The position numbers were made by a program, and so were the translations under genes. A stretch of DNA of 64,000 nt, taken from assembly GCF_027604915.1 (NCBI RefSeq), contig NZ_JAJAQC010000041.1, forward strand, positions 1 through 64,000. The letters run 5' to 3'. The notes under the pieces were generated by a model. That model made no database searches, was not told where the DNA came from, and saw only the letters and a list, made by a program, of their open reading frames with translations. Every line of letters begins with the position of its first letter. Positions within the stretch are counted from its first letter, which is position 1. This DNA is from Streptomonospora mangrovi (GTDB taxonomy: Bacteria > Actinomycetota > Actinomycetes > Streptosporangiales > Streptosporangiaceae). Shown one piece after another: positions 22,045 through 61,233 of this stretch.

Positions 22045-22724
22045 GCACACCGCAGGAGCGCGGGGAGTTCGGGACGCAGGGGGCGCGGCCGGGCGGCGGC
22101 TCGCGCGAGCGCGTCCTGGCGCGGGTGCGCGCGGCGCTGGCCGACGTGCCCGCCCGCGAGGCGCCCGAGGACGTCGCGGTGCCGCGCGCCTACACGCCCG
22201 CCCACGGGCAGGGCGCGACCGTGGACCTGCTCGTGGACCGCCTGGTGGACTACCGGGCGCACGTGCACCGGGTGGCGCCGGAGGAGCTGGCCGAGCGGAT
22301 CGGCCTGGCGCTGGCCCACCGGCGCGCCCACCGGGTGGCGGCGCCGGCCGACGCGCCCGAGGAGTGGTTCGCCCGAACCGCCACCACGGTCGTGCGCGAC
22401 GGCGGCGGGTTGGACGTGGCGGAGCTGGACGGGATGGACGGCGTGGTGACCGGCTGCGCGGTGGCCGTCGCCGAGACCGGCACGATCGTCCTGGACGCGG
22501 GGGCGGCGCAGGGGCGCCGCGCCCTCACCCTGATCCCCGACTACCACCTGTGCGTGGTGCGGGCCGACCAGATCGTGGACGGGGTGCCGCAGGCGCTGCC
22601 GCGGCTGGACCCCGCGCGGCCGCTGACCTGGATCAGCGGGCCGTCCGCCACCAGCGACATCGAACTGAACCGCGTCGAGGGCGTGCACGGTCCGCGCACG
22701 CTGGAGGTCGTGATCGTGGAGTAG
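22041..22724 (+). CDS. lutC: Lactate utilisation protein C (LUD domain)
   Basis: A 227-residue LUD-domain protein, third member of the lactate-oxidising complex. After a variable N-terminus of about 30 residues come GCAVAVAETGTIVLDAG near 135-151, the HLCVVRADQIVDGVP segment and the conserved ending ISGPSATSDIELNRVEGVHG near 200. No lactate permease gene follows in this window. The start codon overlaps lutB (ATGA). Confidence 0.93.
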   Translation: MSTPQERGEFGTQGARPGGGSRERVLARVRAALADVPAREAPEDVAVPRAYTPAHGQGATVDLLVDRLVDYRAHVHRVAPEELAERIGLALAHRRAHRVAAPADAPEEWFARTATTVVRDGGGLDVAELDGMDGVVTGCAVAVAETGTIVLDAGAAQGRRALTLIPDYHLCVVRADQIVDGVPQALPRLDPARPLTWISGPSATSDIELNRVEGVHGPRTLEVVIVE

Positions 22725-22759
22725 CGCGGGGGGGCGCCGGCGGTGCGGCGGCGGAGCAG

Positions 22760-22784
22760 CCGGTGGGCGGCGGCAGCCCGCCGG
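22760..22784. terminator. Weak hairpin between convergent lutC and the kinase gene
   Basis: CCGGTGGGC and GCCCGCCGG pair over 9 bp with one G-T wobble and a 7-nt loop. It lies 35 bp past the lutC stop. Confidence 0.35.
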
Positions 22785-22869
22785 TCCCGGTCCGGCCCCT
22801 CGGCGGGGCCGCCGGACCCGACGGGCGCACCGACTGCCCGGCCCGCCGCCCACCCCCGCTCTGCCCTGC

Positions 22870-43094: not shown

Positions 43095-43237
43095 GTCGTC
43101 TTCTCCTGTGTCGGGGAACGTCCAGCACCATCCAGGGTGGCGCTGCCAACCCGCCAGGAGAAGCGGGGTGGCATCGATGGGACCGGACTGGGGGAAGTAG
43201 CCCTCGGGTGCCAACGTCTTGTGCCATGCTCGCCAAC

Positions 43238-44026
43238 ATGAACGTGCATTACCGGCAGTTCGGTGCCACCCTCCGCGAATGGCGAAACAGCAAGGGCATG
43301 ACCCTTGATCAGGTCGCAAATGCAACAAATCTAGCCAAAAGCACGATCAGCAAATTGGAGTCGGGATACCGGTCTACCACCCTCTCCAACGTCGAACGGC
43401 TTGACGCCTTGCTGGGGGCCGAAGGCGAAGTCGTAACGGCTTGGCGCGAGTCTCGGCAACGGGCAGCCGATCCCGACTGGTTGAACCGCATCCGAGAGAG
43501 CGAGGAGCGGGCCGTCGAGATCCGGGCGTTCAATCCCTTGTACGTCCCCGGACTACTCCAAACGCCTGACTACGCCCGGATAGTTTTCCGCGATGCATCA
43601 CCGGGCGAGAATCCGGAGACGATTGATGCGTTGGTTGAAGCACGATGTGATCGCCTCCGCCAACTGGCGAGCGCTGTGCGGGTCATCATCCCGGATTCCA
43701 TTCTGCGCTACCCAGTCGGCGGCGCTGCGACCATGCGGGCGCAACTGCAACACCTCATCGATCTCTCAGGTCGGGTCCGCATCCAGGTGCTCCCCGATGA
43801 CATCGGCTACCACGGCCGGTTCGCGGGATCATTCCGAATCCTCTCCTTTGACGACCGTGTTCCTCGGGTTGAATGCGAACATGCCACCGGTTCGATCGTG
43901 GAAGTCCGGCCGCCCGAGGTCAGAAGGCTGACGGCTGTGTTCTCCGAGCTTGCGAGCTGGGGCTACGATCCAGAGCGGAGTTTGGCCGCGTTGGAGGAGA
44001 TTCGAGATGGATACGCAGTGGCGTAA
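43238..44026 (+). CDS. XRE-family regulator with DUF5753 (Scr1/WhiJ-like)
   Basis: A 262-residue protein. An N-terminal helix-turn-helix (MTLDQVANATNLAKSTISKL near residues 21-40) is followed by a DUF5753 domain (about 85-255) with RAFNPLYVPGLLQTPDYAR and VLPDDIGYHGRFAGSFRIL. These regulators occur in large numbers in actinomycetes, usually next to a small DUF397 protein as here; some pairs act in development or as antitoxin-toxin-like modules. Starts at 43226 and 43208 are also open; none has a ribosome site. The 3' end overlaps the DUF397 gene by 20 bases. It may regulate the lasso cluster, but no site shows this. Confidence 0.85.
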   Translation: MNVHYRQFGATLREWRNSKGMTLDQVANATNLAKSTISKLESGYRSTTLSNVERLDALLGAEGEVVTAWRESRQRAADPDWLNRIRESEERAVEIRAFNPLYVPGLLQTPDYARIVFRDASPGENPETIDALVEARCDRLRQLASAVRVIIPDSILRYPVGGAATMRAQLQHLIDLSGRVRIQVLPDDIGYHGRFAGSFRILSFDDRVPRVECEHATGSIVEVRPPEVRRLTAVFSELASWGYDPERSLAALEEIRDGYAVA

Positions 44027-44183
44027 GAGCAGTTACAGCGGTCCTCGGGGCGACTGCCTTGAAGCCCGTATTGCCAACGATGGCGCGGCCTTGGTCAGGG
44101 ACACCCAGAACCGCGAGGGGGGCATGCTGGCGTTCCCCGTGACGGAGTGGTCGGCCTTCCTCGCCGAGGTGGACCGGCTCTAG
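44007..44183 (+). CDS. DUF397 protein
   Basis: A 58-residue protein with the DUF397 pattern: WRKSSYSGPRGDCLEA near residues 5-20, VRDTQNREGGMLAFPVTEW near 31 and a final FLAEVDRL. It partners the upstream XRE/DUF5753 regulator, and ATG 44007 lies inside that gene. Partners of this type are small and cytoplasmic and may modulate the regulator. GGAGGAGAT precedes the start. Confidence 0.88.
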   Translation: MDTQWRKSSYSGPRGDCLEARIANDGAALVRDTQNREGGMLAFPVTEWSAFLAEVDRL

Positions 44184-44235: not shown

Positions 44236-44250
44236 TCGTGTTGTCGGGCG
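44236..44250 (+). repeat. 15-bp direct repeat, left copy flanking the lasso cluster
   Basis: TCGTGTTGTCGGGCG is identical to 47718-47732. The copies bracket the complete lasso gene set, about 3.5 kb apart. No integrase or transposase is inside, and a 15-bp match can arise by chance, so an insertion scar is only a possibility. Confidence 0.4.
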
Positions 44251-44396
44251 TCCCGCATGCCCGGCCGCGCCGCCAACAAAGTGAACCTCCGGCCGAACGT
44301 GGCCAGCACCACGACAAGGCGCTAGGGCTCCAGCCGGGCATGAACACGGTTACGCACCAAGCACGCTGTGTCAAAGGAATGAGAGAGGCGAGCACT

Positions 44397-44528
44397 GTGG
44401 AGCCCGAGACTCAACCGGAAGAGACATCCGAGGAGCCGAAGGTCATCACCATCGGCGACGCATCGGAACTGACTGAAGGGACGACCAACCGGAGCGGTCC
44501 GGAGGACAAGCGCTACAAGTACACCTGA
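44397..44528 (+). CDS. Lasso peptide precursor
   Basis: A 43-residue precursor (49 if ATG 44379 is used). The leader is acidic and ends in VITIGDASELTE, with the conserved Thr at position -2. The predicted core is GTTNRSGPEDKRYKYT: Gly1 would be joined to Glu9 to give a nine-residue ring, leaving a seven-residue loop/tail with two Lys and two Tyr. GTG 44397 is preferred because GAGAGAGG lies eight bases upstream; AAAGGA directly touches ATG 44379. The next genes are a cyclase, a leader-processing fusion and an acetyltransferase, which fixes the assignment. The usual YxxP leader motif is missing. Confidence 0.85.
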   Translation: MEPETQPEETSEEPKVITIGDASELTEGTTNRSGPEDKRYKYT

Positions 44529-44535
44529 CCCCTCC

Positions 44536-44574
44536 AGCGTGGCGCCAGGAACTCTCGATCCCTGTCGCCACGCT
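44536..44574 (+). terminator. Hairpin between precursor and cyclase genes (attenuator)
   Basis: AGCGTGGCG (44536-44544) and CGCCACGCT (44566-44574) form a perfect 9-bp stem; CAGG/CCTG extends it past a single mismatch. It starts seven bases after the precursor stop. Such hairpins may stop part of transcription or protect the precursor mRNA, raising precursor over enzyme levels. Confidence 0.65.
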
Positions 44575-44603
44575 CTACTGCACCTCCCACGAAAGGCTTC
44601 GTC

Positions 44604-46334
44604 ATGCGTTGGTTCGGTGGCCACGTCACGAACACACCGGCGGCACCGTTTCCCCGCCCCCACGGCGCCCGTCTGCTGACGGAGTCGCCGCATCCGGTAT
44701 GGACGGTGGGCGAGTGGAGCGGGCGCGAAACAACCCACGCCAGTGCGCACGGGCGCGAGGCGATCATCTTCGGAGTCCACGCCGTGCCTTCGCAGGCAGT
44801 TGCCTCCTGGCTTCGTGATTTCCACGCGCCGCCCGCATGGCCCGGCTGCTACACGGTCGTCGTGTGCGACCCCGATGAGATCACCGTCTTCACCGACCCG
44901 GCCCACGCCGTACCGATCTATTGCACCGAACTGGGTGGCGGATTGGTCTGGGGCTCATCGAGCCGTGCACTCGCGGCGTTGGCAGGCAGTCGGATCAACC
45001 CGGCATGGGTTGCTGGTGCCATCAGCCGTCCCATCTCGTTCCGCCCGGAAAGGCAGTCGGCTTTCAGCGGTGTCAACGCCATCGCTCCTGGGCACCGCGT
45101 GACGTTGCGTCCGGGCCGTCGGCCGCGGTCGCGGCCATGGTGGCGAATTCCCCGCCTTCTTCCCGCGCGAGAAGCCGCCTGGGGTCTACGCAGCGCACTG
45201 GAGGATGCCGTGGCAGCCCGGACGGCCATTGCCCAGCACCTTTCCTGTGATCTCAGCGGAGGCTTGGACTCGACAACCCTTTGTCTGCTGGCAGCCGACC
45301 ACGCACGGCCGCCTGCGCGGGTAACTGCGCTGACTGTTCGCCCCGCCGCCGTTGACAGCGGCGGGGACCTGGATTACGCCCGCGCCATCGTGCGCGAACG
45401 CGGCGACATCTCGCACGTCCTCTTGCCTCTGGGGACGGGCTGTGATCCCTATGCCGCGCTCCGCGAGATCGGTCCTACCGACGAACCCGCGCCGACCACG
45501 ATCACCTACGCACGCCACCGCGCCGCCTACCAAACCCTGTCCAGTATCGGCAGCCGACATCACATCACCGGTGACGGGGGCGACGCACTACTCATTCCGC
45601 CCCCATCCGCTCTGACCGGGCCAATGAGTCAGGGACCACACCACTACCTTCGCCATTTCGTGAACGAGTACGGCAGAGCCAAGTTGAACCGGACAAGTCC
45701 CTGGTCCCACCTGCGCGGACTCATCATGCCGCCTCCAGAGCAGCCGCCGGCATGGGTCACGCGGCGCGCTCAGGACTTGACCGCAATCGGCGCGGACAAG
45801 GGCGACGACGGGGAAGACACCGGAACTCTGGCCGAGATACGCACCACCGCCCGCACCGCCCAGGCTGACACCCAGATTGCCGCAGCCTGGGGCATCCGAC
45901 TCGACGCTCCGTTCTTCGACCGTGCGGTGATCGAGGCGGCTCTCCGCTTCCACCCTGTCGACCGCGGGTCCCCGTGGAACTACAAACCGCAGATCACAGT
46001 CGCGATGGCCGACGTCCTTCCGGCCCTGGTTCGGCGACGCCACACGAAAGGCGACACCACCGCCGACCACTATCGCGGCCTGCGCCACCATCTCACAGAG
46101 ACCCGGGACTTGACCGAAGGATGGCTCGCCGGACACGGACTGATCGACACCCAACGACTCAACGCCGCCCTGGGTAACGGAGCGACCGGCCTTCCCGCGC
46201 CATTCGGATCGGTGGAAGCGGCCATCGCAGCCGAAGTCTGGGCGCGCGCTGTCACGGCCGCAACGCCCATCGCTTGGACCTACAGCACGGCCCAACCAGG
46301 AAATTTCAATGGACGCTTACGTCACCGCCCCTGA
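44604..46334 (+). CDS. Lasso peptide cyclase (asparagine synthetase B-like)
   Basis: A 576-residue homologue of asparagine synthetase B, the lasso C protein. The N-terminal part (about 1-180) is glutaminase-like but lacks the nucleophilic Cys2 (it begins MRWFGG). The synthetase part has the pyrophosphatase loop CDLSGGLDSTTLCLLAADHA near 214 and ITGDGGDALL near 323. It would adenylate the Glu9 side chain so that the core N-terminus closes the macrolactam. It overlaps the next gene by 26 bases. Codon use is less GC-biased than in housekeeping neighbours. Confidence 0.9.
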   Translation: MRWFGGHVTNTPAAPFPRPHGARLLTESPHPVWTVGEWSGRETTHASAHGREAIIFGVHAVPSQAVASWLRDFHAPPAWPGCYTVVVCDPDEITVFTDPAHAVPIYCTELGGGLVWGSSSRALAALAGSRINPAWVAGAISRPISFRPERQSAFSGVNAIAPGHRVTLRPGRRPRSRPWWRIPRLLPAREAAWGLRSALEDAVAARTAIAQHLSCDLSGGLDSTTLCLLAADHARPPARVTALTVRPAAVDSGGDLDYARAIVRERGDISHVLLPLGTGCDPYAALREIGPTDEPAPTTITYARHRAAYQTLSSIGSRHHITGDGGDALLIPPPSALTGPMSQGPHHYLRHFVNEYGRAKLNRTSPWSHLRGLIMPPPEQPPAWVTRRAQDLTAIGADKGDDGEDTGTLAEIRTTARTAQADTQIAAAWGIRLDAPFFDRAVIEAALRFHPVDRGSPWNYKPQITVAMADVLPALVRRRHTKGDTTADHYRGLRHHLTETRDLTEGWLAGHGLIDTQRLNAALGNGATGLPAPFGSVEAAIAAEVWARAVTAATPIAWTYSTAQPGNFNGRLRHRP

Positions 46335-47061
46335 GCACCTACGATCGGTCGCCTTTCCCGCCGTCACAGTCCTCCTCGACACACGCACCGGAACCGTGCA
46401 GGCGCTGACCGGTACGGCGGCGAAGATCTGGGCGGAAATCGCGACCACCGCCGACCCGCAAGCACCTGTTGCCGGTATCGCCCCCGAGACCGTGGCGCGC
46501 ACCGTTAGCGCACTGGCGCAGCGACGACTGCTCCTATCCACCGCGACCGCGCAGCCCTGGAGTCCTCCGGCCATAGGCCATGAGCCATCCCCGAGCTGGG
46601 GCACCCATGTGAGCCCAGCCGCTTTGACGGCGATCCCGGCGCCCCCATGGCCTTGGCACCTGCCTGCGGCAGCGGCCCTGATCGCAACACTCATCACCCG
46701 CCATGCCGGAAGGCGGCAACGCCGGTTCGCCCGACTGCAACGGTTGGCTACCCGGCAGACTCCGCTGCGGCCCGCCCCTCCAGCCACCGTGCGCCACGCG
46801 GTACGCGCTGTACGCCGAGTCTCCCGCCTGATTCCGGCGCGCGTGGCATGTTTAGAGGAGTCAACAGCGGCCATGGTCACGCTACGCGCCTTGGGGTACA
46901 GCGCTCAGTGGCGGCACGGCGTAGCCACCGACCCGATACGGCTGCACGCATGGGTGCAAGCCGGCGGTCGTCCCGTCGACGAACCCGCCGACACCGCCAA
47001 CTACACGCCTTTTCCAGGAGCATTCCATGAGCGACCCGACCCGGCCGGTTCTCTGGGTTGA
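46309..47061 (+). CDS. Fused lasso B1-B2 protein: PqqD-like RRE plus leader peptidase
   Basis: A 250-residue fusion. Residues 1-85 look like a PqqD-type RiPP recognition element (HLRSVAFPAVTVLLDTRTGTVQALTGTAAKIW, given as PAVTVLLDTRTG and LTGTAAKIW), which binds leader peptides. Residues about 100-250 are the transglutaminase-fold peptidase: catalytic Cys in ARVACLEESTAAMV near 181-187, His in RLHAWVQAGG near 217 and Asp in RPVDEPAD near 226. In many clusters these are two proteins. It should bind the leader and cut after ELTE to expose Gly1. It overlaps the cyclase (26 bases) and the acetyltransferase (35 bases). Confidence 0.88.
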   Translation: MDAYVTAPEHLRSVAFPAVTVLLDTRTGTVQALTGTAAKIWAEIATTADPQAPVAGIAPETVARTVSALAQRRLLLSTATAQPWSPPAIGHEPSPSWGTHVSPAALTAIPAPPWPWHLPAAAALIATLITRHAGRRQRRFARLQRLATRQTPLRPAPPATVRHAVRAVRRVSRLIPARVACLEESTAAMVTLRALGYSAQWRHGVATDPIRLHAWVQAGGRPVDEPADTANYTPFPGAFHERPDPAGSLG

Positions 47062-53602: not shown

Positions 53603-54934
53603 GTGAGCGAACGCTGGACCCCCGACGACGTCTGGGCCCTCGCCCCTGACGCATCCTCCCGCAAGGCCGCCGTCAAGACCGCCAAACCGGCCTCCTGGGC
53701 GCTGCGCGGCTTCCGCGCCGGCGACTCCGGCGGAGGGCTCGCGGTGTGGGGCGAATGCTCCGGCAGCGGATCCAAGCCCTACCAGGTCGTGGTCGACCTG
53801 GCGGCCGCCCCCGCCTCCCGGTGCTCCTGCCCCAGCCGCAAGTTCCCCTGCAAGCACGCGCTGGCCCTGCTGTACCTGTGGTCGGAGAACACGGTCGACC
53901 CCGGCGACCCCCCAGAGTGGGCCGCCGAATGGCTGGCCCGCCGCGAGGCCGCGCGCGAACGCCCCGCGGCCGAACCCGCCGCGCCCGCCGACCCCGAGGC
54001 CGCCGCCCGCCGGCTCGAACGCCGCGAGGAGCGCGTGGCCGAGGGCCTGGCCGAACTCGAACTCTGGCTGCGCGACCAGGTCGAGTCCGGGCTGGCCGGC
54101 GCGCCCGGCATGGGCTACGGCGAACTCGACTCCGTGGCCGCCCGCCTGGTCGACGCCCAGGCCGGCCGCCTGGCCGACCACGTGCGCGGCCTCAGCGGCG
54201 TCACCTCGCTGCCCGACTGGCCGGCCCGGCTGCTGACCGAGTACTCCCTGCTGCGCCTGCTGACCGCCGCCTACCAGCGGCGCGAGCACCTCCCCGAACC
54301 CATGCGCGCCACCGTGCGCGCCCGGGTGGGGCTGCCCTCCTCCCCCGACCTCTCCGCGCCGGTGCGCGACACCTGGCACGTCCTGGGCCGGTGCGACTTC
54401 CCCGCCGGCCAGGTCCGGGGCCGGCGCATCTGGCTGCGCGGCGCCACCACCGGGCGCACCGCCATGATGGTGTCCTTCGCGCCCCAGGGCCAGGTGCCCG
54501 AGACCCCCGTCCGGGTGGGCACCGCCGTCGACGCCGACCTCGCCTTCCACCCCGCCGAGTCCCGCGCGGTGCTGGTCGCCCTGCACGGCGACTCCGCCGC
54601 CGAACCCCCCGGCACCGGGGCCGACACCGCCCTGGCCGACTGGTCGGCGGCGCTGGCGGCCGACCCCTGGTGCACCGCGTGGCCGGTGGTCGTGGCCGAC
54701 GCCGAGTTCGTACGCGGCACCCCCTGGCTGCTGGCCGACCCCACCGGGGCCGCACTGCCGCTGCGCCAGGACTGCTGCCCGCCGCTGACCGCGGCCGCCG
54801 TCAGCGGCGGCGCGCCGGTCACCGTGGCCGGCGAGTGGACCCCCGGCGGGCTGCGCCCGCTGTCGGTGTGGGCCCCCGACGGCCGCTGCGTCTCCCTCGA
54901 CCCCAGAGTCCCGGCCGGGGCCGCGGGCGCCTGA
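53603..54934 (+). CDS. SWIM zinc-finger protein, first gene of a MoxR/VWA system
   Basis: A 443-residue protein. The SWIM motif is RCSCPSRKFPCKHALALLYL near residues 74-93 (CxC, then CxH). The N-terminus (WTPDDVWALAPDASSRKAAV) and an Arg/Glu-rich helix (about 110-150) follow the pattern of SWIM proteins encoded with DUF5691, MoxR, DUF5682 and VWA genes. It may bind DNA or protein. Start GTG 53603 is suggested by a leaderless -10. A 65-bp gap separates it from the next gene. Confidence 0.85.
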   Translation: MSERWTPDDVWALAPDASSRKAAVKTAKPASWALRGFRAGDSGGGLAVWGECSGSGSKPYQVVVDLAAAPASRCSCPSRKFPCKHALALLYLWSENTVDPGDPPEWAAEWLARREAARERPAAEPAAPADPEAAARRLERREERVAEGLAELELWLRDQVESGLAGAPGMGYGELDSVAARLVDAQAGRLADHVRGLSGVTSLPDWPARLLTEYSLLRLLTAAYQRREHLPEPMRATVRARVGLPSSPDLSAPVRDTWHVLGRCDFPAGQVRGRRIWLRGATTGRTAMMVSFAPQGQVPETPVRVGTAVDADLAFHPAESRAVLVALHGDSAAEPPGTGADTALADWSAALAADPWCTAWPVVVADAEFVRGTPWLLADPTGAALPLRQDCCPPLTAAAVSGGAPVTVAGEWTPGGLRPLSVWAPDGRCVSLDPRVPAGAAGA

Positions 54935-54999
54935 GCCCGTACCGCCGCCCCCGGCCGCCGACCCTTCGCCCCCGCCCTTTCCCAGGTGAGAGGACCCCT

Positions 55000-56451
55000 G
55001 TGCCCCCCGACTCCCCGACCGTGCCCGCCGACACCTGGAGCGACCTCGTCTCCGCGGCCCTGGTGGGCACCGCCCGCCGCTCGGTCCCCGAACCCGCCGG
55101 CCTGCCCGAGGTCCGGCGCGACGACCCCGCGCTGGCCCTGCTGGACCGCGCCGCGCTGGCGGCGGTGCGGCTGCGCGCGGGCCGCGTGCCCGCCCGCGTC
55201 GAACCCGACGACCCCGGCCGCCTGCCCCCGGCCGCGCCCGACACCGCCCCGGCGGTGCCGGCGGCCGCCGCCCGGCGCCTGGCCTCGCTGCTGGAGGGCG
55301 ACCTCCCGCTGCTGCGCGAGTGGGCCGACCTCGCGGCCCGGCGCGGCATGGTCGTCCCGACCGACCTGCTCCCCGCCGTCCTCAACCGCGGCGCCCGCGA
55401 CCACGACCTCGGCCGGGCCCTGGCCCGCGTGGTGGGCGAGCGCGGCCGGTGGCTGGCCGCCGTCAGCTCCCGCTGGGCCTACCTGGAGCGCCACACCCAC
55501 ACCGGCGAGTTCACCGTCGAGAAGTGGCGCGCCCAAGGCGCCGAGAACCGCCGGGCGCTGCTGGAGGCCCGCGAACCCCTCCTGTCGCCCGCCGACGAAT
55601 CCCTCCTCGAAGAGGCCATGGCCGACCGCAGTTCGCGCGTGCGCGGCATCGCCCTCGCGCTGCTGGCCCAGCTCCCCGACACCGAGCGCGGCCGGCGCCT
55701 GGCCGACCTCGCCCGCCGCCACGTCACCCTGCGCGACGGCGCCGTCGAAATCAGCCCGCCCGAGGTCGCCGACCCCGACGTCCCCGCCGCGCTGGGGCTG
55801 TCGGCCGCCACCGGCACCCGCGAGGAGATCCGCGAGGAGCGGCTGTGGGCGCTGGTCACCCACGCCCCCCTGGACTGCTGGCTGGGCCGGCTGGGCGCCG
55901 ACCCCGACGAGGTCGCGGCCGCCGCCTCCGCCCACCCCGAACTGCTCGACACCCTGGCCAACGCCGCCGTCGTGCAGCGGCGCCCCGACTGGGCGCGGGC
56001 GCTGCTGCCCGCCCTGTTCCAGCGGCTCTCCCGGCGCCACCACGTGCGGTCCAGCCGCGCCCACGCCCTCGTGGGGCTGCTGCCGCCCGACGACCAGTGC
56101 GCCTGGGCCCTGGAGCACGCCAAGCAGGTCTCCCCCGGAACGCGGGGCGCCACCGCCCTGCTGTCGGTGGTCGAGTGCGTGGAGTGCCCCTGGAGCCCCG
56201 ACCTCGGCCAGATCGTGGCCGACGTCCTGATCGGCGCCGAGAACTCCGACAGCGGCCTGGCCGCCCTGGCCCACGCCGCCGAGACCCGCATGCCCCCCGA
56301 ACTACACCCCCGGATCGCCGAGGCCGCACGCACCCGCCTGGGCCCGCCCTCCGACCAGCCCGACCGCGACGCCCAGCGCGTCGCGGAGATCCTGCGCGGC
56401 CTCGCCGAGAAGCTGCGTTTCCGCCACGAGATGCACAAGGAGTTCCATTGA
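55000..56451 (+). CDS. DUF5691 protein
   Basis: A 483-residue helical repeat-like protein. It opens with WSDLVSAALVGTARRSVPEP, the conserved N-terminus of DUF5691, and contains Arg/Leu-rich repeats such as RSSRVRGIALALLAQLPDTE near 210. No catalytic motif or membrane segment is visible; a scaffold or adaptor role is inferred. The start is GTG 55000, with AGAGGA six bases upstream. Its stop overlaps the TTG start of the AAA+ gene. Confidence 0.85.
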   Translation: MPPDSPTVPADTWSDLVSAALVGTARRSVPEPAGLPEVRRDDPALALLDRAALAAVRLRAGRVPARVEPDDPGRLPPAAPDTAPAVPAAAARRLASLLEGDLPLLREWADLAARRGMVVPTDLLPAVLNRGARDHDLGRALARVVGERGRWLAAVSSRWAYLERHTHTGEFTVEKWRAQGAENRRALLEAREPLLSPADESLLEEAMADRSSRVRGIALALLAQLPDTERGRRLADLARRHVTLRDGAVEISPPEVADPDVPAALGLSAATGTREEIREERLWALVTHAPLDCWLGRLGADPDEVAAAASAHPELLDTLANAAVVQRRPDWARALLPALFQRLSRRHHVRSSRAHALVGLLPPDDQCAWALEHAKQVSPGTRGATALLSVVECVECPWSPDLGQIVADVLIGAENSDSGLAALAHAAETRMPPELHPRIAEAARTRLGPPSDQPDRDAQRVAEILRGLAEKLRFRHEMHKEFH

Positions 56452-57545
56452 GCCACCCCGCCACCGGGGCCGCCCTGCGGCCGCACGCGGAGCAGAGCTA
56501 CGCCGACGAGCTGGCCGCGCTCGAACGCGCCGACTCCCGCCCGCGCCCGCCGGGGTGGCGGATGTCGCCGTGGGCCGTCACCCAGTACATCCTGGGCGGC
56601 AAGCTCGACGACGGCACCGAGATCACCCCCAAGTACATCGGCCACCGCCGCGTCGTGGAGATCGCGGTGGCGACCCTGGCCACCGACCGCGCGCTGCTGC
56701 TGCTGGGCGTGCCCGGCACCGCCAAGACCTGGCTGTCGGAGCACCTGGCGGCGGCCATCTCCGGCGACTCCACCCTGCTGGTGCAGGGCACGGCCGGCAC
56801 CGCCGAGGAGGCCATCCGCTACGGCTGGAACTACGCGCGGCTGCTGGCCGAGGGCCCCTCCCAGGCCGCGCTGGTGCCCAGCCCGGTCATGACCGCCATG
56901 GCCGACGGTCGCCTGGCCCGCGTCGAGGAGCTGACCCGCATCCCCTCCGACGTCCAGGACGCCCTGATCACCGTGCTGTCGGAGAAGGCGCTGCCGGTGC
57001 CCGAGCTGAGCACGGAGGTCCAGGCCCAGCGCGGCTTCAACGTGATCGCCACCGCCAACGACCGCGACCGCGGCGTCAACGACCTGTCCAGCGCGCTGCG
57101 CCGCCGGTTCAACACCGTGGTGCTGCCGGTGCCGGCCACCATCGACGAGGAGATCGACATCGTCACCCGGCGCGTGGCCGACCTCGGCCGCTCGCTGGAG
57201 CTGCCCGAGGTCCCCACCAGCCTCGCCGAGATCCGCCGCGTGGTGACCGTCTTCCGCGAACTGCGCCAGGGCGTCACCGCCGACGGCAAGGCCAAGGTGA
57301 AGTCGCCCAGCGGCACGCTGAGCACCGCCGAGGCCATCTCGGTGGTCACCAACGGCATCGCCCTGGCCGCCCACTTCGGCGACGGCACGCTGCGCCCCGC
57401 CGACGTCGCCGCGGGCATCCACGGCGCCGTGGTGCAGGACCCCGTCTCCGACTCCGTGGTGTGGCGCGAGTACCTGGAGACGGTGGCGCGCGAGCGCGAC
57501 GGCTGGGACGGCTTCTACCGCGCCTGCCGCGAAGTGAGCCGCTGA
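56448..57545 (+). CDS. MoxR-like AAA+ ATPase
   Basis: A 365-residue AAA+ protein. Walker A is LLGVPGTAKTW near residue 84, Walker B is ARVEELTRIPSDVQDAL near 163, and sensor 1 is NVIATANDRDRG near 201. The start is TTG 56448, supported by AAGGAG five bases upstream and a TTGA overlap with the upstream stop. Its VWA partner is encoded two genes later. It is only distantly similar to the MoxR at 30410-31444, so the two belong to different subfamilies. Confidence 0.92.
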   Translation: MSHPATGAALRPHAEQSYADELAALERADSRPRPPGWRMSPWAVTQYILGGKLDDGTEITPKYIGHRRVVEIAVATLATDRALLLLGVPGTAKTWLSEHLAAAISGDSTLLVQGTAGTAEEAIRYGWNYARLLAEGPSQAALVPSPVMTAMADGRLARVEELTRIPSDVQDALITVLSEKALPVPELSTEVQAQRGFNVIATANDRDRGVNDLSSALRRRFNTVVLPVPATIDEEIDIVTRRVADLGRSLELPEVPTSLAEIRRVVTVFRELRQGVTADGKAKVKSPSGTLSTAEAISVVTNGIALAAHFGDGTLRPADVAAGIHGAVVQDPVSDSVVWREYLETVARERDGWDGFYRACREVSR

Positions 57546-59929
57546 TGGCGCGCGTCGACACCGACCGCGTGCACGTCCTGGGGGTGCGCCACCACGGCCC
57601 GGGCTCGGCGCGCGCCGTGGCCGCCGAGCTGGAGCGGTTGCGCCCCGACCTCGTGCTCATCGAGGGCCCGCCCGAGGCCGACCAGCTCACCCGGTTGGTC
57701 GGCGAAGGGCTGGAGCCGCCGGTGGCGCTGCTGGCCTACGTGCCCGGGGAGCCCGCGCGGGCGGCGTTCTGGCCGTTCGCGGTGTTCTCCCCGGAGTGGG
57801 TGGCGCTGCGCCACGCCGCCGACCACGGTGTCGAGGTCCGCTTCTGCGACCTGCCGGCGGCCCACACCCTGGCCGAACCGGAGGCCGCCGACTCCGCCGA
57901 GGCGGCCGGCGGCACCCCCGGCGGGGGCGGCGCGGACGGTGAGAGCGGTGCGGGCGGCGGCACCGCCCCGGCGGAGGCGGACGGCCCCGGCGGCGCGGAC
58001 ACCCCGCTGCCGGCGGCCGGCCCCGACACCGGCGACGACGCCCACCGCCGCGTCACCGACCCCCTGGGCGTGCTGGCCGAGGCCGCCGGCTACGGCGACC
58101 CCGAACGCTGGTGGGACGAGGTGGTGGAGGGCCGCGAGACCGGCCCCGACACCCCCTCGCCCTTCCCCGCCATCGCCGAGGCCATGGCGGCGGTGCGGGC
58201 CGACCTCGGCACCGGCCTGAGCGGCGCCGCCGCCGAACGCGAGGCCCGCCGCGAGGCGCACATGCGCCAGGTGCTGCGCAAGGCGCTGCGCGAGGACCAC
58301 CGGCGCATCGCCGTGGTCTGCGGCGCCTGGCACGTGCCCGCGCTCCTGGAGCACCCGCGCGTCTCCGAGGACACCGCCCTGCTGCGCGGGCTGCCCAAGG
58401 CCAAGGTCGCGGCCACGTGGATCCCCTGGACCCACGGCCGGCTGGCCGCCGCCTCGGGCTACCGCGCGGGCGTGCGCGCGCCCGGCTGGTACCACCACCT
58501 GTTCACCTCGCCCGACCGGCCGGTGGAGCGGTGGCTGGCCGAGGCCGGGCGGCGGCTGCGCGAGCGCGACCAGCCGGTGTCCTCCGCCCACGTCATCGAG
58601 GCGGTGCGGCTGACCCAGACCCTGGCGGTGCTGCGCGGCCGGCCGCTGGCCGGGCTGGAGGAGGTCGCCGACGCCGTGGAGTCGGTGCTGTGCGAGGGCG
58701 CGCGGACCCGCGCCGAACTCCTGCACCGCGACATGGTCGTGGGCGAGCGCCTGGGCTCGGTGCCCGAGCACACCCCCATGGTGCCGCTCCAGCGCGACCT
58801 CGCCGCCCAGCAGAAGCGGGTGCGCCTCCAGCCCTCGGCCACCCCGCGCGACCTCGACCTGGACCTGCGCGAGGACAACGGCCGGCGGCGCAGCGTGCTG
58901 CTGCACCGGCTGCGGCTGCTGGGCGTGAACTGGGGCAGCCCCCAGCGCTCCGGCACCGGTTCCAAGGGCACCTTCCGGGAGTCCTGGCGCCTGGAGTGGG
59001 CGCCCGAACTCGACCTGTCGCTGATCGAGGCGGGGGTGTGGGGCACCGACGTGGAGTCCGCCGCCACCGCCCGGGTGCGGGCGCGGGCCGACGGGGCCGA
59101 CCTGCCCACGCTGACCGCGCTGGCCGAGAAGTGCCTGCACGCCGACCTCACCGGCGCCATCGGCGGGGTCCTGGCCGCGCTGACCGCGCGCGCCGCCGAG
59201 GACACCGACATCGAACGCCTGATGGCGGCGCTGCCGCCGCTGGCCCGCTCGGTGCGCTACGGCGACGTCCGCAAGAGCGACTCCGCCGCGCTGCACCGGG
59301 TGGCCGCCGAACTCCTGGCGCGGGTGTGCGCCGGGCTGGCCCCGGCCCTGACCGGGCTGGACGACGCCGCCGCGGCGGCGATGGTCCGCGCGATCGACGC
59401 CGTGCAGGGCGCCGCGGTGCTGCTGGGCGGCGAACCCGAGTCCGACTGGCTGGACACCCTGGGCGCGGTGGCGGTGCGCGACTCCGCGCCGGGCCGGGTG
59501 GCCGGGCGGGCCAACCGCATCCTGCACGACGCCGGCCGCCTGGACGACTCCACCCTGGCGGTGCGCATGACCCGGGCCACCTCGCGCGGGGTGGAGCCGG
59601 CGCGCGCCGCCGCCTGGCTGGAGGGGTTCCTCTCGGGCAGCGGGCTGCTGCTGGTGCACGACACCGCGCTGCTGGCGCTGGTGGACCGGTGGCTCGCCGG
59701 GCTCTCCGGCGAGGCGTTCACCGAGGTCCTGCCGCTGGTGCGGCGCACCTTCGGCTCGTTCGCCACACCCGAGCGCCGCGCCATCGGCGAGCAGGTGCGC
59801 CGCCTGGACTCCCCCGGCGCCTCCGGCGGCGCCGAGGCCGCCCCCGACGACCTCGACCCCCGGCGCGCCGCGCCGGCGGTGGCGGCGGTGGCGGAGCTGC
59901 TCGGCCTGGCCGCGCCCGTCCCCGGCTGA
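57545..59929 (+). CDS. DUF5682 protein
   Basis: A 794-residue protein. The N-terminal part has VHVLGVRHHGPGSAR near residues 9-23 and PDLVLIEGPPEADQL near 34, and RIAVVCGAWHVPALLEHP near 258: a TraB/ChaN-like set of GxRHHG and GAWH motifs, so a metal-dependent hydrolase is possible. A Gly/Ala/Pro-rich insertion (about 110-160) separates them. The C-terminal half is helical. Its ATG overlaps the AAA+ stop (TGATG). Activity is inferred, not established. Confidence 0.85.
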   Translation: MARVDTDRVHVLGVRHHGPGSARAVAAELERLRPDLVLIEGPPEADQLTRLVGEGLEPPVALLAYVPGEPARAAFWPFAVFSPEWVALRHAADHGVEVRFCDLPAAHTLAEPEAADSAEAAGGTPGGGGADGESGAGGGTAPAEADGPGGADTPLPAAGPDTGDDAHRRVTDPLGVLAEAAGYGDPERWWDEVVEGRETGPDTPSPFPAIAEAMAAVRADLGTGLSGAAAEREARREAHMRQVLRKALREDHRRIAVVCGAWHVPALLEHPRVSEDTALLRGLPKAKVAATWIPWTHGRLAAASGYRAGVRAPGWYHHLFTSPDRPVERWLAEAGRRLRERDQPVSSAHVIEAVRLTQTLAVLRGRPLAGLEEVADAVESVLCEGARTRAELLHRDMVVGERLGSVPEHTPMVPLQRDLAAQQKRVRLQPSATPRDLDLDLREDNGRRRSVLLHRLRLLGVNWGSPQRSGTGSKGTFRESWRLEWAPELDLSLIEAGVWGTDVESAATARVRARADGADLPTLTALAEKCLHADLTGAIGGVLAALTARAAEDTDIERLMAALPPLARSVRYGDVRKSDSAALHRVAAELLARVCAGLAPALTGLDDAAAAAMVRAIDAVQGAAVLLGGEPESDWLDTLGAVAVRDSAPGRVAGRANRILHDAGRLDDSTLAVRMTRATSRGVEPARAAAWLEGFLSGSGLLLVHDTALLALVDRWLAGLSGEAFTEVLPLVRRTFGSFATPERRAIGEQVRRLDSPGASGGAEAAPDDLDPRRAAPAVAAVAELLGLAAPVPG

Positions 59930-60018
59930 CCCCGGCCCCTCCCCCGCCCCCTTCGCCCCGCCGACCCCGAGAGGAGGCTGCGGCGGCCGGCCCGCCCGCC
60001 GGCCGCCGCGCACCCCCG

Positions 60019-61233
60019 ATGACCGACCTCACCGACACCCCGGCCGCCCTCGCCGAGCCCGAGCACCAGCCCGAGCGGCTGCGCCGGTGGCGGCTGGTGC
60101 TGGGCGGCGCCGCCGCCTCGGAGTTCGCCGAACTCAACGCCGCCGACAAGCGCATGGACGGCGCCCTGGCCGCCCTCTACGACCAGGGCTCGGGCGGTCC
60201 CGGCGGGCGCGGCGGCCCCCGCTCCGCCGGCCTGGGCGGCTCGGCCCCGGCCGTGGCCGACTGGCTGGGCGACATCCGCCAGTACTTCCCCACCAGCGTG
60301 GTGCGGGTGATGCAGGCCGACGCCATGGACCGGCTCGGCCTGGACCGGCTGCTGCTGGAGCCGGAGATGATGGAGGCGGTGGAGCCCGACGTCCACCTGG
60401 TGGGCACGCTGCTCTCCCTCAACCAGGTCATGCCCGAGCAGGCCCGCGAGACCGCGCGCACGGTGGTGCGCAAGGTCGTGGAGGACCTGGAGAAGCGCCT
60501 GGCCCAGCGCACCCGCGCGGTGGTGCAGGGCGCGCTGGACCGCTCGGCCCGCACCCACCGCCCGCGCCGGGTCGCCGACATCGACTGGGACCGCACCATC
60601 CGGCGCAACCTCCAGCACTACCTGCCCGAGCAGCGCACCGTGGTGCCGCAGAACCTGGTGGGCTACGCCCGGCGCAGCCGGGGCGTGCAGCGCGACGTGG
60701 TGCTGTGCATCGACCAGAGCGGGTCGATGGCGGCCTCGGTGGTCTACGCGGGGGTGTTCGCCGCGGTGCTGGCCTCCATCCGGGCGCTGCGCACCTCCAT
60801 GGTCGTGTTCGACACCTCGGTGGTGGACCTCACCGAGCAGTTGAGCGACCCGGTGGAGGTGCTGTTCGGCACCCAGTTGGGCGGGGGCACCCACATCAAC
60901 CGCGCCCTGGCCTACTGCGAGGGGCTGATCACCCGGCCCTCGCAGTCGATGCTGGTGCTGATCAGCGACCTCTACGAGGGCGGGGTGCGCGAGGAGATGC
61001 TGCGCCGGGTGGCGGCCATGACCGCCGCGGGCGTGCAGGTGGTGGTGCTGCTGGCGCTGTCGGACGAGGGCGCGCCCTCCTACGACCGCCACAACGCCGC
61101 CGCCCTGGCCGCCATGGGGGTCCCGGCGTTCGCCTGCACCCCCGACAAGTTCCCCGACCTGATGGCCGCCGCGATCCAGGGCAGGTCCCTGGCCGCCTGG
61201 GTGGAGGAGGAGCAGGCCGCCGAGAGAGGGTAG
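60019..61233 (+). CDS. VWA-domain protein, last gene of the MoxR system
   Basis: A 404-residue protein. The N-terminal half is helical (about 1-215); the VWA domain has the metal-ion-dependent adhesion site CIDQSGSMAAS near residues 233-243 and GTQLGGGTHINRAL near 290. VWA proteins are standard partners of MoxR ATPases, the ATPase remodelling the metal-bound domain. An 89-bp gap separates it from the DUF5682 gene. No ribosome site lies close to ATG 60019; GAGAGGAGG is about 40 bases upstream. Confidence 0.92.
   Translation: MTDLTDTPAALAEPEHQPERLRRWRLVLGGAAASEFAELNAADKRMDGALAALYDQGSGGPGGRGGPRSAGLGGSAPAVADWLGDIRQYFPTSVVRVMQADAMDRLGLDRLLLEPEMMEAVEPDVHLVGTLLSLNQVMPEQARETARTVVRKVVEDLEKRLAQRTRAVVQGALDRSARTHRPRRVADIDWDRTIRRNLQHYLPEQRTVVPQNLVGYARRSRGVQRDVVLCIDQSGSMAASVVYAGVFAAVLASIRALRTSMVVFDTSVVDLTEQLSDPVEVLFGTQLGGGTHINRALAYCEGLITRPSQSMLVLISDLYEGGVREEMLRRVAAMTAAGVQVVVLLALSDEGAPSYDRHNAAALAAMGVPAFACTPDKFPDLMAAAIQGRSLAAWVEEEQAAERG

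Follow-up and report, generated by a model that had tools for sequence, protein, structure and literature searches.

A MoxR-VWA gene cluster of Streptomonospora mangrovi, conserved as a five-gene unit across phyla and with a probable TIKI/TraB-like hydrolase domain in DUF5682

The window analyzed here comprises positions 1 to 64,000 of contig NZ_JAJAQC010000041.1 from Streptomonospora mangrovi (assembly GCF_027604915.1). At 53603-61233 it holds five plus-strand genes encoding, in order, a SWIM zinc-finger protein, a DUF5691 protein, a MoxR AAA+ ATPase, a DUF5682 protein, and a VWA protein of the CoxE type. These five genes behave as one unit whose order is maintained across at least 8 phyla, their closest known relative is the yehL-yehM-yehP-yehQ set of Escherichia coli K-12, and the N-terminal domain of DUF5682 is probably a hydrolase of the TIKI/TraB/Ere superfamily. 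All five proteins exceed their Pfam family cut-offs, and start codons were chosen by ribosome-binding-like sequence or homologue support, which bears out the original prediction, made from the DNA letters alone, of five genes facing one way. Its description of three joins as overlaps or short gaps was nearly right: the joins are two overlaps, of 4 nucleotides (nt) between DUF5691 and MoxR (TTGA) and of 1 nt between MoxR and DUF5682 (TGATG), and two short gaps, of 65 nt between SWIM and DUF5691 and 89 nt between DUF5682 and VWA. A divergent O-methyltransferase gene upstream and a convergent CorA gene downstream bound the cluster, inside which a search for Rfam elements and a consensus terminator found none.

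The MoxR protein carries intact motifs of a MoxR AAA+ ATPase, a class recognized by a P-loop, Walker B, a sensor Asn, and an Arg finger (Table 1). Its P-loop is of a variant form, GxxxTAK[ST], that recurs in 103 of 108 loci, and its profile matches Midasin and NorQ in the Protein Data Bank (PDB). The VWA protein combines a DxSxS ... T ... D metal-ion-dependent adhesion site (MIDAS) with a CoxE-like profile. SWIM homologues at the equivalent gene position share 36-51% identity. In DUF5691 of this genome, profile positions 153-191 of PF18944 are unmatched, and the only hint of its fold in the PDB is a very weak match of its profile to designed HEAT repeats (E 0.75); it is probably a HEAT-like helical solenoid adaptor. 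No solved relatives by sequence are present in the PDB for DUF5682, DUF5691, VWA, or SWIM. The full-length AlphaFold2 (AF2) model of DUF5682 is confident, with a predicted local distance difference test score (pLDDT) of 86.9. Its N-domain is alpha/beta and its C-terminal part helical, and residues 115-169 form an insertion modelled at low confidence.

Table 1. Genes, domains, and motifs of the five-gene cluster (window coordinates)
Feature	Position	Strand	Support or conservation
SWIM zinc-finger protein, 443 amino acids (aa), GTG start	53603-54934	+	PF04434, 32.9 bits
SWIM Cys/His finger, CSCPSRKFPCKH	53822-53857	+	Cys/His invariant in alignment
DUF5691 protein, 483 aa	55000-56451	+	PF18944, 279.7 bits
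DUF5691 VRGIALALL stretch	55639-55665	+	
MoxR AAA+ ATPase, 365 aa, TTG start overlapping DUF5691 stop	56448-57545	+	AAA_5, 126.6 bits
MoxR P-loop, GVPGTAKT	56706-56729	+	
MoxR Walker-B-like, RVEEL	56919-56933	+	
MoxR sensor, ATAND	57048-57062	+	
DUF5682 protein, 794 aa	57545-59929	+	PF18934, 910 bits
DUF5682 predicted N-terminal TIKI/TraB-like hydrolase domain, residues 1 to ~325, followed by C-terminal helical solenoid			
DUF5682 motif 1, GVRHH (G13-H17), predicted catalytic His after strand 1	57581-57595	+	G, R, H, H invariant
DUF5682 Glu40 (LIEGP), predicted catalytic Glu ending strand 2	57662-57664	+	invariant
DUF5682 motif 3, REAHM (R236-M240), predicted substrate-binding Arg	58250-58264	+	R, E, A, M invariant
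DUF5682 motif 4, GAWH (G260-H263), second predicted catalytic His	58322-58333	+	G, A, H invariant
VWA_CoxE protein, 404 aa	60019-61233	+	PF05762, 192.3 bits
VWA MIDAS, DQSGSM	60712-60729	+	complete MIDAS
VWA MIDAS, GGGTHI	60880-60897	+	complete MIDAS
VWA MIDAS, ISD	60961-60969	+	complete MIDAS

Relatives were sought in 84,980 species genomes. At least 587 turned up, of which the 80 best loci were read, and gene order was compared using the five window proteins as queries. The order SWIM-DUF5691-MoxR-DUF5682-VWA recurs in Actinomycetota, Cyanobacteriota, and Chloroflexota, in an Obscuribacterales genome, in a planctomycete of the Isosphaeraceae, and in the gammaproteobacterium Thiofilum. Annotated plasmid records add the same five-gene order in Rhizobium and Deinococcus. 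This conservation is far above chance. Streptomyces have the SWIM-DUF5691 pair inverted and still adjacent. Flanking gene families recur only within a genus or among close relatives, and there is no conserved sixth gene. The five families have correlated pairwise distances (r = 0.84-0.94 across 63 loci), in part a reflection of shared species history.

Among 61 genomes of the window's family, DUF5691 occurs in 36, and exactly the same 36 have a full-type DUF5682 (score above 600 bits), in every case on the same contig and within a few kilobases. The other 25 have neither, except that 6 of them carry low-scoring DUF5682 subtypes (36/36 versus 0/25, Fisher p ~1e-17). In a wider set of 297 genomes of the phylum, all 18 with DUF5691 above cut-off also have DUF5682. 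The five-gene block is carried by 4 of 6 congeneric genomes; in the two without it all five genes are missing and the flanking methyltransferase and CorA/AlkB genes adjoin, an absence that represents gain or loss of the whole block. On order, co-occurrence, and fusions, the original prediction is upheld in its view of MoxR and VWA as the core of one unit to which SWIM, DUF5691, and DUF5682 belong as partners.

These fusions give some indication of how the unit may be put together. SWIM and DUF5691 share one reading frame at six loci (L049, L053, L092, L097, L099, and L101), and in a Hymenobacter plasmid record a 1009-aa DUF5691 protein replaces the separate SWIM and DUF5691 genes, which is probably a further fusion of this kind. 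At two other loci (L110 and L115) DUF5682 and VWA form a single polypeptide. Because such fusions occur naturally, the likely sub-assemblies are SWIM-DUF5691 and DUF5682-VWA, with MoxR in between. At the two latter loci MoxR lies beside the DUF5682-VWA fusion, and a very large upstream open reading frame (ORF; more than 1400 aa) has no Pfam match. A further subtype, at L111, L113, and L114, has the gene order VWA-MoxR-DUF5682-like; in the first two of these the P-loop is the canonical GDPGTGKS and the DUF5682-like protein has neither the TraB GxRHH nor the GAWH motif, and this may perhaps be a catalytically silent branch.

In E. coli K-12 the MoxR-DUF5682-VWA order is identical to that of the window cluster. 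YehL corresponds to MoxR (42% identity over 357 aa, with the same GxPGTAK[ST] P-loop), YehM to DUF5682 (27% identity, with all four motifs of Table 1 present), and YehP to VWA (36% identity). YehQ is likewise a SWIM protein, with PF04434 in both; this similarity is confined to the finger and is not significant over the full length. The two systems differ in that the SWIM gene comes last in E. coli and first in the window, and in that E. coli lacks DUF5691 and has a DUF4132 gene, yehI, upstream instead. No DUF4132 gene lies beside the window cluster, the only one in this genome being on another contig (C56), and comparison of DUF5691 with DUF4132/YehI revealed no relation. The yehM-yehP segment is present in 5304 of 5426 complete E. 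coli genomes (~98%), almost always as a single chromosomal copy. Among actinobacteria, one locus (L112, genome G129) holds a DUF4132+WGR - MoxR - DUF5682 - VWA - YehQ-like set, and L116 is similar. The yeh-type sister system is therefore common to E. coli (L002) and actinobacteria, and a single architecture exists in two lineages or more.

The GxRHHG and GAWH motifs singled out in the original prediction are real and nearly invariant in alignment, and its suggestion of a hydrolase has gained support, as a four-motif signature and a fold search both point to TIKI/TraB/Ere. Motif 1 corresponds to GxxH and motif 4 to VGAxH of TraB/YbaP, the R[EDN]xxM of motif 3 is found in TraB proteins too, and the E. 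coli TraB protein YbaP has the equivalent series GSIH, VEAD, RNLAW, and VGALH. A four-motif TraB-type pattern (H16, E40, R236, H263) matches 109 of 113 DUF5682 frames and none of 8778 other frames. It also matches 3 of 3 full-length PF01963 proteins (L151-L153) that were not used in writing it; these were drawn from 15 genomes holding the system, TraB proteins being nearly absent among relatives of the window's genome. The N-domain was modelled alone because fold searches with whole DUF5682 were dominated by unrelated helical solenoids. With this isolated model, taken from the close homologue L038 (pLDDT 84.6), a Foldseek search of viral predictions gave one significant match, to a TraB family protein of Marseillevirus LCMAC201 (E 1.5e-5, probability 1.00).

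Several results pull the other way. YbaP had already been seen when the motif pattern was drawn up, and the divergent subtype at L111 and L113 lacks the motifs. In a PDB search the N-domain has no match that reaches E 0.001. Its best match is a Tetrahymena complex IV subunit (E 0.0069), and the TM-scores, none above 0.34, are low. Profile comparison of DUF5682 with Ere, YbaP, and TraB by hhalign gives probabilities below 1%, and no DUF5682 member has a known activity. The non-significant YbaP and TraB profile alignments nonetheless align the correct motif, and the non-significant PDB list (E 0.28-1.3 for superfamily members) contains HopBA1 (5t09), BcR135 (2rad/3b55), and ChaN (2g5g), three of the four TIKI-superfamily structural relatives named in PMC6254334. 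On balance the N-domain probably belongs to the TIKI/TraB/Ere superfamily; because sequence-profile comparison falls short of significance, the hydrolase fold is supported but not proven. Tiki is a metal-dependent member of this superfamily. RRSP is a metal-independent one (PMC6254334), and in EreC, which is also metal-independent, the catalytic water is held in place by the matching His, Glu, and His (PMC7979712). The host genome has, in addition, four erythromycin-esterase-like (PF05139) genes, on contigs C43, C45, C72, and C98.

If DUF5682 is such a hydrolase, the cluster could operate as an ATP-driven machine that recognizes, remodels, and cleaves, a reading that follows from a hydrolase sometimes fused to VWA and a finger-plus-solenoid module added to the MoxR-VWA pair. 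MoxR would form a hexameric AAA+ ring, and the VWA protein would be its adaptor, holding a partner via the MIDAS metal site. DUF5682 would be the working enzyme, with His16/His17, Glu40, Arg236, and His263 as its predicted catalytic set, and its helical C-terminal arm would dock on the VWA protein. The SWIM zinc finger together with the helical DUF5691 would be the recognition half that brings the target. Target binding would then let MoxR ATP turnover remodel either the target or the DUF5682-VWA pair, after which a peptide or ester bond might be cut or the hydrolase switched on. In our judgement the best explanation of the locus is an ATP-driven MoxR-VWA remodeller to which DUF5682 is coupled as the hydrolase, SWIM-DUF5691 serving as the adaptor, and we give it about an even chance of being correct. 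A bolder version, which we think rather unlikely, is that this cluster and E. coli YehL-M-P-Q are an unrecognized ATP-dependent machine in which a MoxR ring and VWA clamp feed adaptor-chosen targets to a TIKI/TraB-fold peptidase. If it were true, an energy-dependent protease class without a chamber of the Clp, Lon, FtsH, or proteasome type would lie within the E. coli core genome.

The main rival is that the cluster is a maturation chaperone like CoxD-CoxE, NorQ-NorD, or RavA-ViaA, in which MoxR-VWA would remodel a client for cofactor insertion or complex assembly, with DUF5682 as the client or a docking factor, not an effector, and SWIM and DUF5691 as helpers. The CoxE type of the VWA protein and the reach of the MoxR profile to NorQ and Midasin both fit this possibility, as does the common denominator of such pairs, capture of a substrate by the vWA protein followed by a MoxR-driven conformational change (Kaur et al. 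2020, PMC7159879). Loss or gain of the whole block and the core position in E. coli suit a housekeeping role, and yehM mutations reported under copper selection (PMC12409786) are a weak point on the same side. Known pairs, however, adjoin their client enzyme, and no neighbour outside these five genes is conserved across genera; DUF5682 itself would therefore have to be the client. The conserved hydrolase-type residue set is then left unexplained unless that client is an enzyme, and we doubt this explanation while taking it seriously. That these genes just happen to be adjacent and do nothing together can hardly be entertained: two intergenic gaps are all that favours it, and it is already contradicted by an order shared by many phyla, by the fusions, and by one-to-one co-occurrence and joint absence.

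A conflict system, whether anti-phage or self-limiting, is a third way to read these genes. MoxR-VWA would set a threshold, SWIM-DUF5691 would sense an invader, and DUF5682 would be the effector. The MoxR P-loop has the GxxxTAK[ST] form noted by Kaur et al. in two conflict subsystems, DUF5691 evolves fastest of the five (median 35% identity), distribution outside the family is patchy (both DUFs in 18 of 297 phylum genomes), and the hosts include many bacteria that have large genomes, form filaments, or aggregate. Against this, the five proteins have no PADLOC family beyond a weak SWIM-finger match, and the 104 flanking proteins are mostly metabolic with scattered defence matches only, the neighbours being ordinary metabolic and regulatory genes that differ from genus to genus. 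Within the genus the cluster occupies a stable genomic site, and the yehM-yehP segment is chromosomal in nearly all E. coli. A scan of IMG/VR finds no relative on viral contigs, and the putative effector DUF5682 is conserved, not hypervariable. Thus the conflict or stress role raised in the original prediction finds little backing: viral copies and an enrichment of defence neighbours are both lacking, the E. coli counterpart belongs to the core genome, and the putative effector is conserved. We consider this role improbable. A viral origin of the genes was likewise rejected, the sole match in a phage collection being an unannotated 14-kb faecal contig.

The MoxR-VWA kind is known, and the individual families are catalogued in Pfam and by NCBI. 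Within the open-access literature searched, subscription papers and preprints being outside the search, DUF5682 and DUF5691 are not named, and yehL/M/P/Q receive incidental mentions only, in papers that all leave the system uncharacterized. Its combination with a TIKI/TraB-like hydrolase is, so far as our checks reach, undescribed. Joining the cluster with the yeh system gives a testable model, an AAA+/VWA pair with a probable TIKI/TraB-fold hydrolase for which four residues are named, and the near-ubiquitous four-gene cousin in E. coli makes function testable in a laboratory strain. If this model is right, it would add a new ATP-coupled hydrolase or maturation machine spanning many phyla.

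Elsewhere in the window, 44238-47061 is likely a lasso-peptide cluster, with a G+C content of 66-68% against ~77%. Its genes encode an Asn_synthase-type cyclase (44604-46334) and a Transglut_core3 peptidase (46309-47061), and a small ORF just upstream ends in ...ELTEGTTNRSGPEDKRYKYT, where Gly1 has a Thr two residues ahead of it and position 9 is Glu. Window positions 43208-44183 hold an HTH_31 + DUF5753 regulator and, after it, a small ORF whose end lies at 44183 and which by eye resembles a DUF397 partner. A tRNA with undefined anticodon called by ARAGORN at 22714-22804 is probably spurious.

Among described systems, the ternary conflict systems of Kaur et al. (2020) share with this cluster the MoxR and vWA core, and the GxxxTAK[ST] P-loop is as in their FtsH and beta-propeller subsystems. 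None of their third components (VMAP, iSTAND, FtsH, beta-propeller) is present as a Pfam domain in the five proteins, and the bpMoxR profile scores 22.3 bits against a cut-off of 27. Neither the vWA protein nor a partner bears a hypervariable effector; architecture is constant across loci and the median identity of DUF5682 is 54%. That paper does not mention SWIM, TIKI, or EreA, and its sections contain no system having these partners (PMC7159879). The CoxD-CoxE, NorQ-NorD, and RavA-ViaA pairs are alike in joining an AAA+ MoxR protein to a VWA protein, of CoxE type in this cluster, which in contrast to them has no adjoining client enzyme operon and has three extra conserved partners. DUF5682, for its part, resembles the TIKI/TraB-PrgY-GumN/erythromycin esterase/ChaN superfamily in strand order and in the GxxH ... 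E ... R[EDN]xxM ... GxxH series. It has GVRHH where the superfamily has GE.H or GT.H, and sequence profiles do not connect the two; unlike the superfamily, it combines this predicted site with a large C-terminal helical solenoid and a presumed coupling to an AAA+ ATPase.

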